Source: Planctomycetota bacterium (GTDB taxonomy: Bacteria; Planctomycetota; Planctomycetia; Pirellulales; Pirellulaceae). Taken from it: a stretch of DNA of 64,000 bases. Position numbers and translations under genes: made by a program. The DNA lies in NCBI GenBank assembly GCA_963204915.1, contig CAUJHS010000061.1, positions 1-64,000 on the forward strand. The letters are read 5' to 3'. Shown in pieces: positions 54,906 to 59,596 of this stretch. The notes under the pieces were generated by a model, which saw nothing but the letters and a program-made list of their open reading frames with translations, was not told the DNA's origin and ran no database searches. Within the stretch, counting starts at the first letter, position 1. The number at the start of each line of letters is the position of its first letter.

Positions 54906-56693
54906 TTATAATCCGTCGCCAAACGATTCTACGGCGAACTCGCTGGTCGTACGCCTCCACAAACCCCATGATACCAAAAGCAATGCGGCCAGAGCGTAAC
55001 TGGCGGCAAAGTAGAACGGCGTTTGCCCTTCCGCGTGATGCGGCAGATTCTCAGGCAGACGCCAGGGAAGCAAGAGCGGACTACCCGGCATCGGCGAATG
55101 AATGACGCCAAATAAACTACACGCAGCCGCCACGCTCAAATACCCAGCCGCCAACCCCAGCCGGCGGTCAATAATCGCCGCCAAGGCCGAAGCCCACAAC
55201 AAACTGGTAACGATAAACCCGCCCGAGAGCGCGCGCATGGTTTGGATGTTCTTTCCCAAGACTCCCGCGGGTTCGCCAATCCGATTGATCGCCGGATTGC
55301 CTGCCTTTGTTTCCAGCGCCGCGCCATGTTCGGAAAGCGAAGTCACCGTTTGTTGCAACTGAACCGTCGAGTCACTTTCTGGAAGCGAAGCGACGATCTC
55401 TTCAAGTTGTTGAATTTGCTGGTTCACTTGAGCGACGGCGCCGGCATACTGCCCTTGCAAATCATCGACAAAAATCAGTGCCATGGCGGCCAACGCGGGG
55501 ATACACCCAAACATGACCGCGGCATAATGGCGCTGCGGCGTGGCATGAAAACTTTGCGCCGTGATCTCCAATCCTACGAACACCAGAATCGGGAAGACCG
55601 TAGCTTTAGGAATCAGCAAATACAAGTAGCCAAAGTAGCCAATCACTCCCGCTCCGCCTACAAACAATGCGGTCAGCAGAGTGTAAAGTGCGCGGCCGCC
55701 CATCGCTTTATACGCCGGATGGCCAATGTACGGTGTGGTTTGGATCACTCCGCCGCATAAGGCAGCAACGATCGTAGCTAACGCTTCCACGCCAATCACG
55801 TGGTTGGTATTGAACTCGTCTCCGACGGCGGCAGCGCTCTCGGTGCAGTCGATGCCGCCGACGACCGTTGCCAGGGCAAAAGGAATGACTACGGGCAAAT
55901 ACGTCAACGAATCGCGAAATGCGGTCAGCCATTCCAAGCGAAATGCGCTAAACCAACCCGTAGGAAACAAGGCCATGCGGGCGTCGAACCCTGGTTCTGG
56001 GGGGTGACCTAGCCATCCGTTAAAATCCATGAAGTAATAAATCGCGGCACCCACCAGCAGCGCCGCGAGCGCGCCGGGAATGCGAAAGGGAACCCGGACT
56101 TGCGCCACTAAGGATGTCAAAATGACAGCCAAGGCCGTCATTCCGACAACCGGGTAATGCATTATCTCCAGCATGGGCAAAAAACTGATAAGTACAATCG
56201 CGATTGCTGCAAGCGAGCCCAACAACCCCGCTCGGGGAAGCGATGTTCTCACCCAATGGGAGCAAAACGAGCAAGCCAACTTGAACCAACCACTAACAAA
56301 GATCGCACAAATGCCAATCTTCCAGGTGTAGGCTGCGGCCGCGTGAGGCTCGAGTCCTAACTCGAACTTCGCGTGCAAAAACGAAGGCCCCAGCACAAAG
56401 AACACCATCCCGAAGGTCGAGGGGGTGTCTAACCCCAAGGGCATTGCAGTAATGTCGGTTCGCCCAGTGCGCCGAGCGAGCGAGAACGCCATCCAAAAGA
56501 AAAGCAAATCCCCGACCAAGACGCCTACGGCCGTCCCTGGCACCATGTAAGAAAGGGCGAAGTCTGTAGGAAATTCAAAGACGGTGGCCAACAGCCCGAC
56601 CGCCAAGAGAAGATCGGCGACGTTATCTAACATCAAGCCAAAAAAGGCGTTAACGTCGCCAAGCGAAGCCCATTGATAGCGGCTTTTTGTCAC
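54906..56693 (-). CDS. NCS2-like permease with inserted coiled coil
   Basis: About 595 residues with 12 or more predicted membrane helices. NAFFGLMLDNVADLLLAVGLL at the start, ITAMPLGLDTPSTFG, and DCTESAAAVGDEFNTNHVIGVEALATIVAALCGG, with TPYIGHPAYKAMGGR, suggest a nucleobase/ascorbate (NCS2)-type transporter. The substrate is uncertain. Unusual is a hydrophilic coiled-coil insert at about 419-464 (VNQQIQQLEEIVASLPESDS and following) between helices. A GTG at 56693 (FV-TKSRYQWASLGDV) is the likely start; the frame is open to 57350 but that part is antisense to the sigma gene. Confidence 0.75.
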   Translation of the reverse strand: MTKSRYQWASLGDVNAFFGLMLDNVADLLLAVGLLATVFEFPTDFALSYMVPGTAVGVLVGDLLFFWMAFSLARRTGRTDITAMPLGLDTPSTFGMVFFVLGPSFLHAKFELGLEPHAAAAYTWKIGICAIFVSGWFKLACSFCSHWVRTSLPRAGLLGSLAAIAIVLISFLPMLEIMHYPVVGMTALAVILTSLVAQVRVPFRIPGALAALLVGAAIYYFMDFNGWLGHPPEPGFDARMALFPTGWFSAFRLEWLTAFRDSLTYLPVVIPFALATVVGGIDCTESAAAVGDEFNTNHVIGVEALATIVAALCGGVIQTTPYIGHPAYKAMGGRALYTLLTALFVGGAGVIGYFGYLYLLIPKATVFPILVFVGLEITAQSFHATPQRHYAAVMFGCIPALAAMALIFVDDLQGQYAGAVAQVNQQIQQLEEIVASLPESDSTVQLQQTVTSLSEHGAALETKAGNPAINRIGEPAGVLGKNIQTMRALSGGFIVTSLLWASALAAIIDRRLGLAAGYLSVAAACSLFGVIHSPMPGSPLLLPWRLPENLPHHAEGQTPFYFAASYALAALLLVSWGLWRRTTSEFAVESFGDGL

Positions 56694-56840
56694 GAATGGA
56701 GCGGTGGCATAGGTTTTGCGAAAGGTATGTGCCGTGAGTTTAGAAGGGCCATTTTGGCCTGTCAACGCGAAGTCAATGCCAATCGTCGGTTTGTCGCTGT
56801 TGGTTTTTTTGCGAACTCTCGACCGGCCACTGCGTAAAGA

Positions 56841-57485
56841 ATGATGAACGCTACAATTAATAGCATGAATCACCCTTTGACCGCCGCCGAGAAGGTTGCT
56901 CTTCTCACCGATGAGCAACTTCTCCTCGCCTATCGCACAACCGGCGATCGTGACCGGTTTGCGCAACTGGTGCGCCGGTACGAACGGGAGCTTTACAGTT
57001 ATTTGCGACGCTACTTGGGCGATGCCGAAATGGCCGAAGATGCGTTTCAAGCCGCTTTCCTCCAAGTGCATCTGAAGTGCGATCACTTCGAGGAAGGCCG
57101 CAAGTTCCGGCCCTGGCTGTACACCATTGCCACGAACCAGGCGATTGACGCGCAGCGTCGTAATCGCCGGCATCGCATGGTGAGCCTGGACCAGCCGGCC
57201 GGAGACGCCAGTCAAGACATCGGCAAGCTGTTGGATTTGCTCGAAAGCACCGATCCCAACCCGCTGGCCGAAGTCAACCATGCCGAACGCCGCGATTGGA
57301 TTCGTCAGGCCATGGACGACCTGCCCGAACACCTGCGTAACGTAGTCCATTTGGTTTACTATCAGGGACTAAAGTATCGCGAAGCGGCCGAGGCGTTGTC
57401 GGTTCCGGTGGGCACGGTGAAAAGCCGTTTGCACGCCGCGATCCTCAAATTGAACGAAGTTTGGCGAGCCGCACACGAGGAGTAG
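56841..57485 (+). CDS. ECF-type RNA polymerase sigma factor
   Basis: A 214-residue sigma-70 family protein of the ECF type. Region 2: LLLAYRTTGDRDRFAQLVRRYERELYSYLRR and AEDAFQAAFLQVHLK, FRPWLYTIATNQAIDAQRR. Region 4: DLPEHLRNVVHLVYYQGLKYREAAEALSVPVGTVKSRLHAAILKL, split here over about residues 150-205. ATG 56841 and in-frame ATG 56865 are both possible; TACAAT at 56852-56857 would make the second one a leaderless start. The gene is followed after 43 nt by its probable membrane partner (57529). Confidence 0.93.
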   Translation: MMNATINSMNHPLTAAEKVALLTDEQLLLAYRTTGDRDRFAQLVRRYERELYSYLRRYLGDAEMAEDAFQAAFLQVHLKCDHFEEGRKFRPWLYTIATNQAIDAQRRNRRHRMVSLDQPAGDASQDIGKLLDLLESTDPNPLAEVNHAERRDWIRQAMDDLPEHLRNVVHLVYYQGLKYREAAEALSVPVGTVKSRLHAAILKLNEVWRAAHEE

Positions 57486-57528
57486 TGACGAAACACTCCC
57501 GAGTCGGTCTAACCTAGTATTCCCTCCT

Positions 57529-58659
57529 ATGCGTGAACACCTGCTTGGCTACCTGATGGGAGCGCTGGATGCCTCTCAGCAGCGTGAAGTCGAATCAGCC
57601 ATCCAAGATGACCCGCGACTGCGCCAGGAATTGGAGTCTCTGAATCAGGCTCTGGATCCGCTCCGTACGGAATTGGACTCCTATGAGCCTCCTTTAGGTT
57701 TGGCGAATCGCACCTTGGACGTCATCGGGTCGGTTGCCGGTTGGCCGGACGAACCGAGGGCGGAAGATGTCGATCAACTATCGCCCGAAGCCGTGGCGTT
57801 TCAGTTGGCTTTCGAGAGCAATCATCTCCAAGAGGAGGTTGCCCCCGTTCCGGCGCCGCTGCGAGAACGTAACAGAAACTCGCGGGGACGCGCCAGGGGA
57901 GCCATGACTCCCGTTCGAGAAAACGGGCAGGACACATGGAACCGGTGGGACTTCCTTGATGTCGCGGTTTCCATGGCGTTAGTCGCCGCGGCGGCCATGC
58001 TCTTTTTCCCCGCGATTGCCAATAGTCGCTTTCAGGCGCGTGTTACGGCGTGTCAAAGCAACTTACAGTCTATCGCCCGGACATTGGATACGTACAGCGA
58101 AAACAATAACGGGCGGTTCGTATCCATTCCGGTGAAAGGAAACAGCGCAATTAGCGGCGTTTATGCTCCTACGCTGCTGGATGAAGGATATAAGACCGAC
58201 GATAAGTCGTTCTTCTGCGCCGGAGACCTCGTTGACGATGAAGGCGTCCGCCGACAGATTCCCAGTTTGGCCGCCTTGACGCGAGCTCAGCCCGGCCCCG
58301 AGTTGCGGCATTTGCAACACATCGCCGGCGGGAGCTACGGGTACAACTTAGGCTACATGAATGGCGATCGTTACACGACGGTGCGCAACGCACGTCGTCC
58401 CAGGTTCGCCCTCGTCGCCGACGCGCCTCGCGAACAAGGCGGTCCAAGCATGCATCATGAAGGCCGCGGTCAAAACGTCGCCTTTGAAGATGGGCATGTG
58501 GAGTTCGTCCCGGGCGGAGCCGAGATCGACTTTGACGATATTTACCTTAGCGAACGTGGTCTCGTCGAAGCTGGTTTGGGCGCCCATGATTCGGTGATCG
58601 GCAGCAGCAGTTCGCGCCCGGTGATCTTCGCGATGCCCGTGAGCAACGTTCAACCGTAG
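57529..58659 (+). CDS. Anti-sigma-like / pseudopilin-like hybrid membrane protein
   Basis: A 376-residue protein directly after the ECF sigma gene. Residues 1-60 (LLGYLMGALDASQQREVESAI, DPRLRQELESL) resemble the cytosolic helical head of anti-sigma factors but have no zinc-binding H-x3-C-x2-C. A linker leads to one transmembrane segment (about 142-165). The following RFQARVTACQSNLQSIARTLDTYSENNNGRF resembles the helix of pseudopilin-type proteins. The end has H-E-GRGQNVAFEDGHVEF, a planctomycete DUF1559-like H-x-DG motif. The order implies a sensor whose exported domain controls the sigma factor. Inference only. Confidence 0.82.
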   Translation: MREHLLGYLMGALDASQQREVESAIQDDPRLRQELESLNQALDPLRTELDSYEPPLGLANRTLDVIGSVAGWPDEPRAEDVDQLSPEAVAFQLAFESNHLQEEVAPVPAPLRERNRNSRGRARGAMTPVRENGQDTWNRWDFLDVAVSMALVAAAAMLFFPAIANSRFQARVTACQSNLQSIARTLDTYSENNNGRFVSIPVKGNSAISGVYAPTLLDEGYKTDDKSFFCAGDLVDDEGVRRQIPSLAALTRAQPGPELRHLQHIAGGSYGYNLGYMNGDRYTTVRNARRPRFALVADAPREQGGPSMHHEGRGQNVAFEDGHVEFVPGGAEIDFDDIYLSERGLVEAGLGAHDSVIGSSSSRPVIFAMPVSNVQP

Positions 58660-58750
58660 TTGATTTCCCAACCGGTGAATTGACAAGCGGCGGACCCGGC
58701 TCGTTCGTCGCTCGGCGCCATTCCCGGCGATTCGCTCCAAGGCGTGTCAT

Positions 58751-59596
58751 TCACTGGCATCGCCAGTCGCCCAGGCGGCGTTTAACGCGCGGGTGATCTT
58801 CCAACGAGAGCAATTCTTCCACCATGCCTTGGGCGTCGTCGGTCAGGTTCGTTAGTCGCATCATCCAAAGCGATTGTGGCGTGCCGAGCGAGTCGAACAG
58901 TTCCGCGGGCAGCAGTTCCACCACGGAAGACGCCAGCCGGTAGTTGTAATCGGGATAGGCTGGCTTTTGAGACAGTCCTTGGGCGAACGACGCTCGCAGC
59001 GAGGCGTAGGTCAATTGCCATGCGACGCCGCGTAAGCCGCCTTGCTCGCGCAGGTCGGAAGCAAATTCCTGGGCGCGGTCGGCGTCAAAGGCGAACTCGA
59101 CCGCATCGTGCTCCAGGAGCAAGTGGCCAAGCAGAAGATCGGTCCATCGCTCGCTGCGCCGGCGAATTTGGTTCAACGCGACGGCCTCTTGAATTTCGAA
59201 ACCTTGACCGTAAACCATCAAGTTCAGGGCTCGATTGCGCGCTTCCATTTGTCCGATGTATACCGATCGAGCGACCGCGCCGGCGCCGCCGGAACCGGTT
59301 TTCTCGTCGCACAAGCACATGATGGCGGTCCAAACTCGCGTAAGCACCTCGGCCGTAAGGACCTCCTCCAACACAGGGCGTACTTGTCGCCATAGTTGCG
59401 GCCGGCGATGCGGCGGCGCGAACTGGATGTCCTTCGTATAGGCCCGCATCGCGCGTCCCCAAACGTCAAGCCGGCACTTGCCCGCGGTCCAATAACGCTC
59501 CAGCGCTTGCGGCGACCAATTTGGCGCCGCAGCCACGACGGCCGGACCATGCGCCGCCGCTAATGCTCCCAACTCAACCAACTCCCAGGCGTGCAT
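58751..59596 (-). CDS. Cytoplasmic helical protein, function unknown
   Basis: A 281-residue protein with mainly helical composition, no signal and no membrane segment. Recognisable stretches are PVLEEVLTAEVLTRVWTAIMCLCDEK, ARSVYIGQMEARNRALNLMVYG and LGHLLLEHDAVEFAFDADRAQEF. No known family is recognised. Convergent with the anti-sigma-like gene. Codon use looks normal for the region, so it is probably a real gene. Confidence 0.7.
   Translation of the reverse strand: MHAWELVELGALAAAHGPAVVAAAPNWSPQALERYWTAGKCRLDVWGRAMRAYTKDIQFAPPHRRPQLWRQVRPVLEEVLTAEVLTRVWTAIMCLCDEKTGSGGAGAVARSVYIGQMEARNRALNLMVYGQGFEIQEAVALNQIRRRSERWTDLLLGHLLLEHDAVEFAFDADRAQEFASDLREQGGLRGVAWQLTYASLRASFAQGLSQKPAYPDYNYRLASSVVELLPAELFDSLGTPQSLWMMRLTNLTDDAQGMVEELLSLEDHPRVKRRLGDWRCQ

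Follow-up and report, generated by a model that had tools for sequence, protein, structure and literature searches.

Can a pilin-type domain of the bacterial envelope be connected directly to the control of transcription? The question is raised by two neighbouring genes in a 64,000-nucleotide stretch of planctomycete DNA (the window). The first, at 56841..57485 on the + strand, encodes an ECF sigma factor of 214 aa, and the second, at 57529..58659 on the same strand, encodes a protein of 376 aa that profile matches and an AlphaFold2 model identify as an anti-sigma/pseudopilin hybrid; both open reading frames lie where the sequence-only reading had put them. The start of the sigma gene is uncertain, 56844 and 56865 being alternatives to the ATG at 56841. 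Our answer, to which we assign a probability of about 0.78, is that the two genes form an ECF sigma/anti-sigma operon in which an uncleaved pseudopilin, tethered to the anti-sigma head, serves as the sensor. The link between an envelope domain and transcription that had been suggested from the letters alone is supported by three observations, namely the conservation of the pair, the anti-sigma type of the head and the pilin type of the body.

The first gene product is a clear ECF sigma factor with regions 2 and 4 only. Pfam profiles match Sigma70_r2 (PF04542, 3.1e-19) at residues 43-110 and r4_2 (PF08281, 9.1e-14) at residues 152-204, and Sigma70 region 3 is absent among the six families matched up to E 10. 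The closest solved structure is SigW (4.9e-23), and identity to the other 27 orthologues in the alignment is 54-67%. The host genome encodes a second sigma factor of the same type (1.7e-74), and beside it lies a short ORF (L125, G000:C81:212833-213423; profile E 1.9e-5) that consists of an anti-sigma-like head only and lacks a membrane helix; searched alone, this short ORF gives no match in Pfam or NCBIfam.

The linkage of the two genes, whose absence would have spoken against the sequence-only reading, proved to be conserved: an orthologous sigma gene lies upstream on the same strand in 82/82 head-bearing loci (window included), a set that extends an initial 31/31, and chance juxtaposition of the two genes is thereby ruled out. 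The gap between sigma gene and partner has a median of 8 nt, with a range of -29 to 469. These loci were found via the partner protein and not via the sigma factor, and they are not a random sample, because they are either best-scoring matches (L018-L046 and L048-L076) or hand-picked rows (L077-L096); L105 is the only one from outside the class. L022, in which the sigma frame is split in two, is counted as linked, and the set excludes L047 (a repeat of the window), L092 (a stretch without a match position), L099-L104 and the DUF1559 loci of the host's own genome. L076, near-identical to L073, was omitted from alignment A3. When diverged lineages were approached from the sigma side (11 loci, L107-L116 and L126), a recognisable, diverged partner was found downstream in eight (L107, L108, L110, L111, L113, L114, L115 and L116), where L115 and L105 are one and the same locus and where L108 and L116 match the profile in the pilin part only; the other three of the 11 (L109, L112 and L126) have no recognisable partner downstream of the sigma gene.

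Relatives of the hybrid are present in nearly every genome of the family. The protein search found them in 145/149 genomes, host included, at E<=1e-8 and in 147/149 at E<=1e-3, the exceptions at the stricter threshold being G032, G063, G065 and G138; G032, whose best match is 1.5e-4 and which is 72% complete, is the sole congener of the host among the genomes searched. A profile search of the class (297 genomes) gave full-length rows in at least 18 of 21 families among the matches listed. Also among the matches listed, the row of family f4 starts from position 55, and the best matches of f6 (8.1e-14) and f17 (83 genomes; 6.5e-18) look like ordinary DUF1559 cross-matches. None of the 12 f17 genomes tested has a close sigma match (best 7.0e-37), whereas 11/13 genomes of the non-f17 comparison have one at 1.1e-52 to 1.3e-108, the two without it being G476 and G495, from outside the class. 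Matches listed from outside the class fall mostly on the pseudopilin part; the head is borne by L105/L115 (G483) and L114 (G466), which are head-plus-pseudopilin hybrids beside sigma relatives. Searched with the hybrid protein alone, the named genomes yielded one relative, L009.

The partner begins with a cytosolic head of anti-sigma type (residues 1-70; 57529..57738, + strand). It matches the NCBIfam anti-sigma model NF052375 at 9.7e-10 (residues 5-76) and PRK13920 at 3.8e-9 (residues 1-66), both far under the whole-protein cut-offs (NF052375, an equivalog model, scores 38.8 vs 100 bits). Among the relatives, NF052375 is matched at E<=0.01 by 81/81, zf-HC2 by 5/81 and RskA_N by 7/81. The H-x3-C-x2-C zinc motif is absent from the head of the window protein, and a single locus of the 82 (L105) has it, so that the description of this region as an anti-sigma-like helical head without the zinc motif holds in both respects. 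In the AlphaFold2 model the head helices span residues 2-9, 15-27, 29-48 and 58-69, and VIA-align of the Foldseek candidates superimposes residues 1-67 on RsiW (5wuq_C; Z 6.5, 66 residues, 3.7 Å), residues 1-55 on RslA (Z 5.7) and residues 1-49 on MucA (Z 4.8).

A relative from outside the class bears on how the missing zinc motif is to be read. At L105/L115, a protein of 260 aa lies beside a relative of the sigma factor (1.1e-56); its head is a zinc finger above the Pfam cut-off (27.7 vs 22.2 bits) in which the HxxxCxxC motif is present, and the C-terminal part of the same protein gives a weak match to GspG (0.0015). Because this relative keeps its zinc finger, the head of the window protein is best read from its sequence as an anti-sigma domain of class I that lacks zinc. 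According to an excerpt of PMC7406223, about 44% of the domains of this class do without the zinc motif. Elsewhere in the host genome, an anti-sigma-like head (L011, G000:C49:94295-94708; 1.5e-5 to the window protein) lies within an open frame of 1459 codons. The head is followed by a variable linker (residues 71-139; 57739..57945, + strand), for which mean identity to the relatives over residues 71-135 is 10% vs 35-39% for the domains and in which pLDDT falls below 50 at residues 71-75 and 101-124.

Beyond the linker lie a pilin alpha-1 helix (residues 140-192; 57946..58104, + strand), the N-terminal half of which is the membrane helix, and an exported pseudopilin-type globular domain (58105..58659, + strand) with C230 and an H310-X10-D321-G322 motif. 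One hydrophobic stretch, at about 145-160, can be read from the sequence, and the AlphaFold2 model of the hybrid (81-row alignment, mean pLDDT 86, pTM 0.64) has an unbroken helix from 142 to 192 followed by a small beta domain; both agree with the single membrane helix proposed at the outset. Residues 139-340 align with type IV pilins, the first being Thermus PilA4 (6xxd_A; Z 5.5, 121 residues, 3.6 Å), and in several alignment rows pilin residue 1 falls on hybrid residue 139 or 140, which is consistent with the view of an exported domain with a pseudopilin-like helix. Here residue 140 is numbered as pilin residue 1, so that D144 is pilin position 5 and P161 is pilin position 22. The Z scores are modest (4-6.5, and 3-5.5 for the pilin matches) and call for the caution due to middling values, but the fold matches are credible because sequence profiles agree with them: PDB profile matches connect the body to geopilin, PilE1 and GspG and the head to RskA and RslA, at E 0.003-0.3. 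A Foldseek search of the hybrid model against the PDB returned nothing at E<=0.001.

The DUF1559 signal in this body is faint in the window protein and clearer among its relatives. PF07596 (DUF1559; E 0.1, 13.1 vs 23.3 bits) and TIGR04294 (H-X9-DG; 0.0095, 15.7 bits vs 19) both remain under cut-off there, and at E<=0.01 they match 37/81 and 10/81 relatives, respectively. The spacing in the window protein is H-X10-DG, a variant of the DUF1559 motif. The proposal of a C-terminal DG motif as in DUF1559 proteins therefore stands in part: the variant is present in the C-terminal half, but the family signal is below cut-off and the motif is not at the very C-terminus, since about 54 residues come after it. 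C175, within alpha-1, and C230 are found in 82/82 loci, as is N316, and H310 in 81; the two invariant cysteines could conceivably act in redox sensing. The first cysteine also occurs in 29 DUF1559 proteins found by a strict pattern, which is weak evidence of inheritance because the pattern itself demands that cysteine. A plain DUF1559 protein was considered and rejected as a description of the hybrid: other matches in its own genome begin at residue 106 or later, apart from the head-type ones on C49 and C81, and the loci with pseudopilin-only matches have no such sigma gene (6/6, L099-L104).

Whether the body is ever separated from the head depends on the residues around the junction. A prepilin-peptidase site has Gly or Ala at -1 together with Glu5, and the window protein has Arg139 and Asp144 at these places. 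Over the 82 loci, Arg stands at -1 in 32, Gly in 15 and Ala in 3; position 5 has Asp in 78 loci and Glu in 2; 79 loci retain Pro22; and the aromatic residues at +1 are W (49), F (14) and Y (2). The 9.24-Mb host assembly has 63 DUF1559 match rows, and among the 48 loci drawn from them the prepilin-type motif G/A-x-[ST]-[LIVMF]-x-E is present in 42 and absent in six; the 29 strict-pattern loci have Glu at position 5 and, at -1, Gly in 19 cases and Ala in 10. Because Gly or Ala at -1 is kept in only 18/82 loci, the pilin body probably stays joined to the anti-sigma head, uncleaved, although those 18 suggest that some members might be cleaved.

The DNA in front of the pair carries two types of candidate promoter. 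In 71/82 loci, GAAC-N15-18-CGTA is found between -75 and +45 relative to the sigma start, against 33/3758 random 120-nt segments elsewhere in the same loci, a frequency as expected of an autoregulated ECF; the shorter GAAC-N15-18-CGT is found in 63/81 upstream regions vs 6.1 in shuffles (maximum 12). The window has a candidate CGAAC-N16-CGTA at 56812..56836 on the + strand (GAAC 56813-56816, CGTA 56833-56836) with a spacer of 16; in our estimation it resembles the SigW promoter consensus, and from its letters we read it as the putative autoregulatory promoter of the pair. Its promoter-like -10 element is separated from the ATG at 56841 by 4 nt, and because the site is so near this ATG, the sigma message may be leaderless, as in many relatives, or translation may start further in, at 56865.

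Further upstream lies a sigma54-type -24/-12 site, TGGCATAGGTTTTGC (56705..56719, + strand), with one mismatch to YGGCACRN4TTGC, which we take to be the sigma54 consensus; the orientation of the site also rests on this consensus, because the region is common to a divergent gene. The element is exact in 26/80 upstream regions and present with at most one mismatch in 45/80, compared with 0.85 per shuffle set and 1 on the reverse strand, and it mostly lies 140-360 nt upstream of the sigma genes. This count covers 80 of the 82 loci, L049 and L105 having too little upstream DNA. The loci with the element include the window, L018, L020, L021 and L025-L028, and among L077-L096 it is found in only 3/19, of which two belong to the same order as the window. 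A sigma54-type site before an ECF operon hints at a sigma54-to-ECF cascade. The divergent gene (54909-56666, - strand) encodes a membrane protein that has no match in Pfam, and it is present in at least 36/82 loci. A sigma70-like promoter (TTGACA, 17 nt, TAAACT), apparently that of the divergent gene, can be read at 56737-56765 on the - strand, and TGTCAA is found in 32/81 upstream regions vs 3.9 in shuffles. An Rfam scan of 56400-58900 gave one match only, far under the gathering score (17.6 vs 60 bits).

Searches for further sites established no regulon beyond the pair's own operon in the host and eight congeneric genomes. The pattern CGAACYYTYN11-13CGTA has 10 sites in the host genome vs 2 in the control, and 9/10, the true site included, overlap an open frame of at least 120 codons, so that such overlap sorts little among them; two sites (L178 and L183) precede what are presumably a Dps-like and a CsoR-like protein. 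The eight congeneric genomes have 47 sites vs 30 in the control, of which 30/47 were read. Eight of the 47 are the sigma factor's own site: 4 were read as such, and the others have the same or nearly the same letters. Two further groups, with 4 sites read in each, comprise 7 sites within a coding frame and 5 sites without a clear gene. One group precedes a gene that recurs in 5/8 genomes (4 read) and that we take to be DHFR-like, and one precedes a gene recurring in 2 genomes, presumably an ABC ATPase. A model of the sigma-partner complex, made by read-through of the stop (L024, 53-row alignment), has pLDDT 83 and pTM 0.50 and comes without an interface measure.

These results can be set against other readings of the same pair. 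The one that survives best, a serious prospect although at less than even odds, takes the partner for an anti-sigma factor of the ordinary envelope-stress kind, whose pilin-like domain is a recruited, stable exported fold which senses general damage and is unrelated to any pilin or secretion machinery. The replacement of Glu5 by Asp in 78/82 loci and the loss of Gly/Ala at -1 in 64/82 look as if assembly and processing were irrelevant, and the few recurring candidate sites precede genes that we presume to be DHFR-like and ABC-ATPase genes, not pilin genes. Against this, an acid is kept at position 5 in 80/82 and Pro22 in 79, and with the aromatic residue at +1 and the two invariant cysteines this amounts to more pilin-like constraint than a mere scaffold needs.

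The same residues leave some room for a more speculative idea, which we regard as doubtful: the anti-sigma factor would be a decoy pseudopilin that joins the DUF1559 inner-membrane pool or assembly platform by virtue of its acid at position 5, its helix with Pro22 and its pilin body, and the amount or flow of pseudopilins would be read as sigma release. If true, this would be an envelope-secretion checkpoint conserved across most of the class, with entry via the sigma54-type promoter and amplification by the sigma factor's own promoter.

It is improbable that the hybrid is a true minor pseudopilin with a long N-terminal leader, which is processed and assembled and whose leader is freed as an anti-sigma domain. 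The 18/82 loci with Gly/Ala at -1 all have an acid at +5, and the host genome encodes prepilin peptidases (four genes of this type), but residue 139 is Arg in the window protein and in 32/82 loci overall, and +5 is Asp in 78. Least likely of all is a partner that does not inhibit the sigma factor but activates it as a chaperone or tethers it to the membrane: linkage alone fits both roles equally, but the head matches the anti-sigma model NF052375 in 81/81, one relative has the classic zinc-finger form, and a sigma factor and its partner behind one ECF-type promoter are the usual layout of negative feedback.

If the pair is, as we favour, an ECF sigma/anti-sigma operon with a tethered pseudopilin as its sensor, its family and fold suggest that the head (residues 1-70) would hold the sigma factor in the cytosol, away from RNA polymerase. 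The hybrid would sit N-in/C-out in the inner membrane via the pilin alpha-1 helix, and with the cleavage site not conserved, head and pilin body would remain one polypeptide. What the exported body would most likely feel is a change in the envelope or in the DUF1559/type II-like pseudopilin machinery, of which there are dozens of copies in the host genome, and the signal could release the sigma factor by regulated proteolysis or by a conformational change. Free sigma would then transcribe its own operon from the GAAC-N16-CGTA site, a response that would limit itself because transcription of the operon makes more anti-sigma.

Parts of this arrangement are familiar. The sigma factor is closest in sequence to SigW of the SigW-RsiW pair of Bacillus subtilis, the head of the hybrid aligns with the anti-sigma factors of SigW-RsiW, SigL-RslA and AlgU-MucA, and the order of sigma gene first, partner next and an ECF-type site in front is that of ECF/class I anti-sigma pairs, RpoE-RseA and SigK-RskA among them. 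What differs from all five is the exported sensor, which in the hybrid is a pilin/pseudopilin-type domain; we know of no such sensor in any of them. The hybrid likewise shares alpha-1, the position of the first conserved cysteine and the H...DG motif with the planctomycete DUF1559/H-X9-DG pseudopilins, but it is unlike them in that -1 Gly/Ala is not conserved, Asp stands for Glu5, the motif has X10 and not X9, and the leader is replaced by an anti-sigma head. The nearest functional analogy, one of working alike and not of membership, is PilS-PilA of Pseudomonas aeruginosa, where pilins reportedly act on their own expression via contact with a membrane sensor protein (work said to be that of Kilmury and Burrows, 2016); that system has a two-component kinase and a separate pilin, whereas here the pilin-type body would be part of the anti-sigma factor itself.

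The combination is unusual: both halves are known separately, and their union in one protein, with a tethered pseudopilin as the sensor of an ECF anti-sigma domain, was not found described. The titles and abstract openings listed on anti-sigma or ECF factors together with pilins, DUF1559 or Planctomycetes contain no description of an ECF anti-sigma/pilin hybrid; an ECF classification might name the group. In Planctopirus limnophila the largest paralogue group is formed by 68 DUF1559 proteins of unknown function, of which two are essential, as given in an excerpt of PMC10632474. The operon found in 145/149 genomes of the family ties a DUF1559-type fold to a sigma factor and so offers a genetic handle on the sensed signal. 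With the hybrid, the exported domains described for anti-sigma factors would come to include a sensor of pilin type, through which the cell may monitor its envelope or its secretion filaments by means of a sigma factor that is probably held at the membrane.
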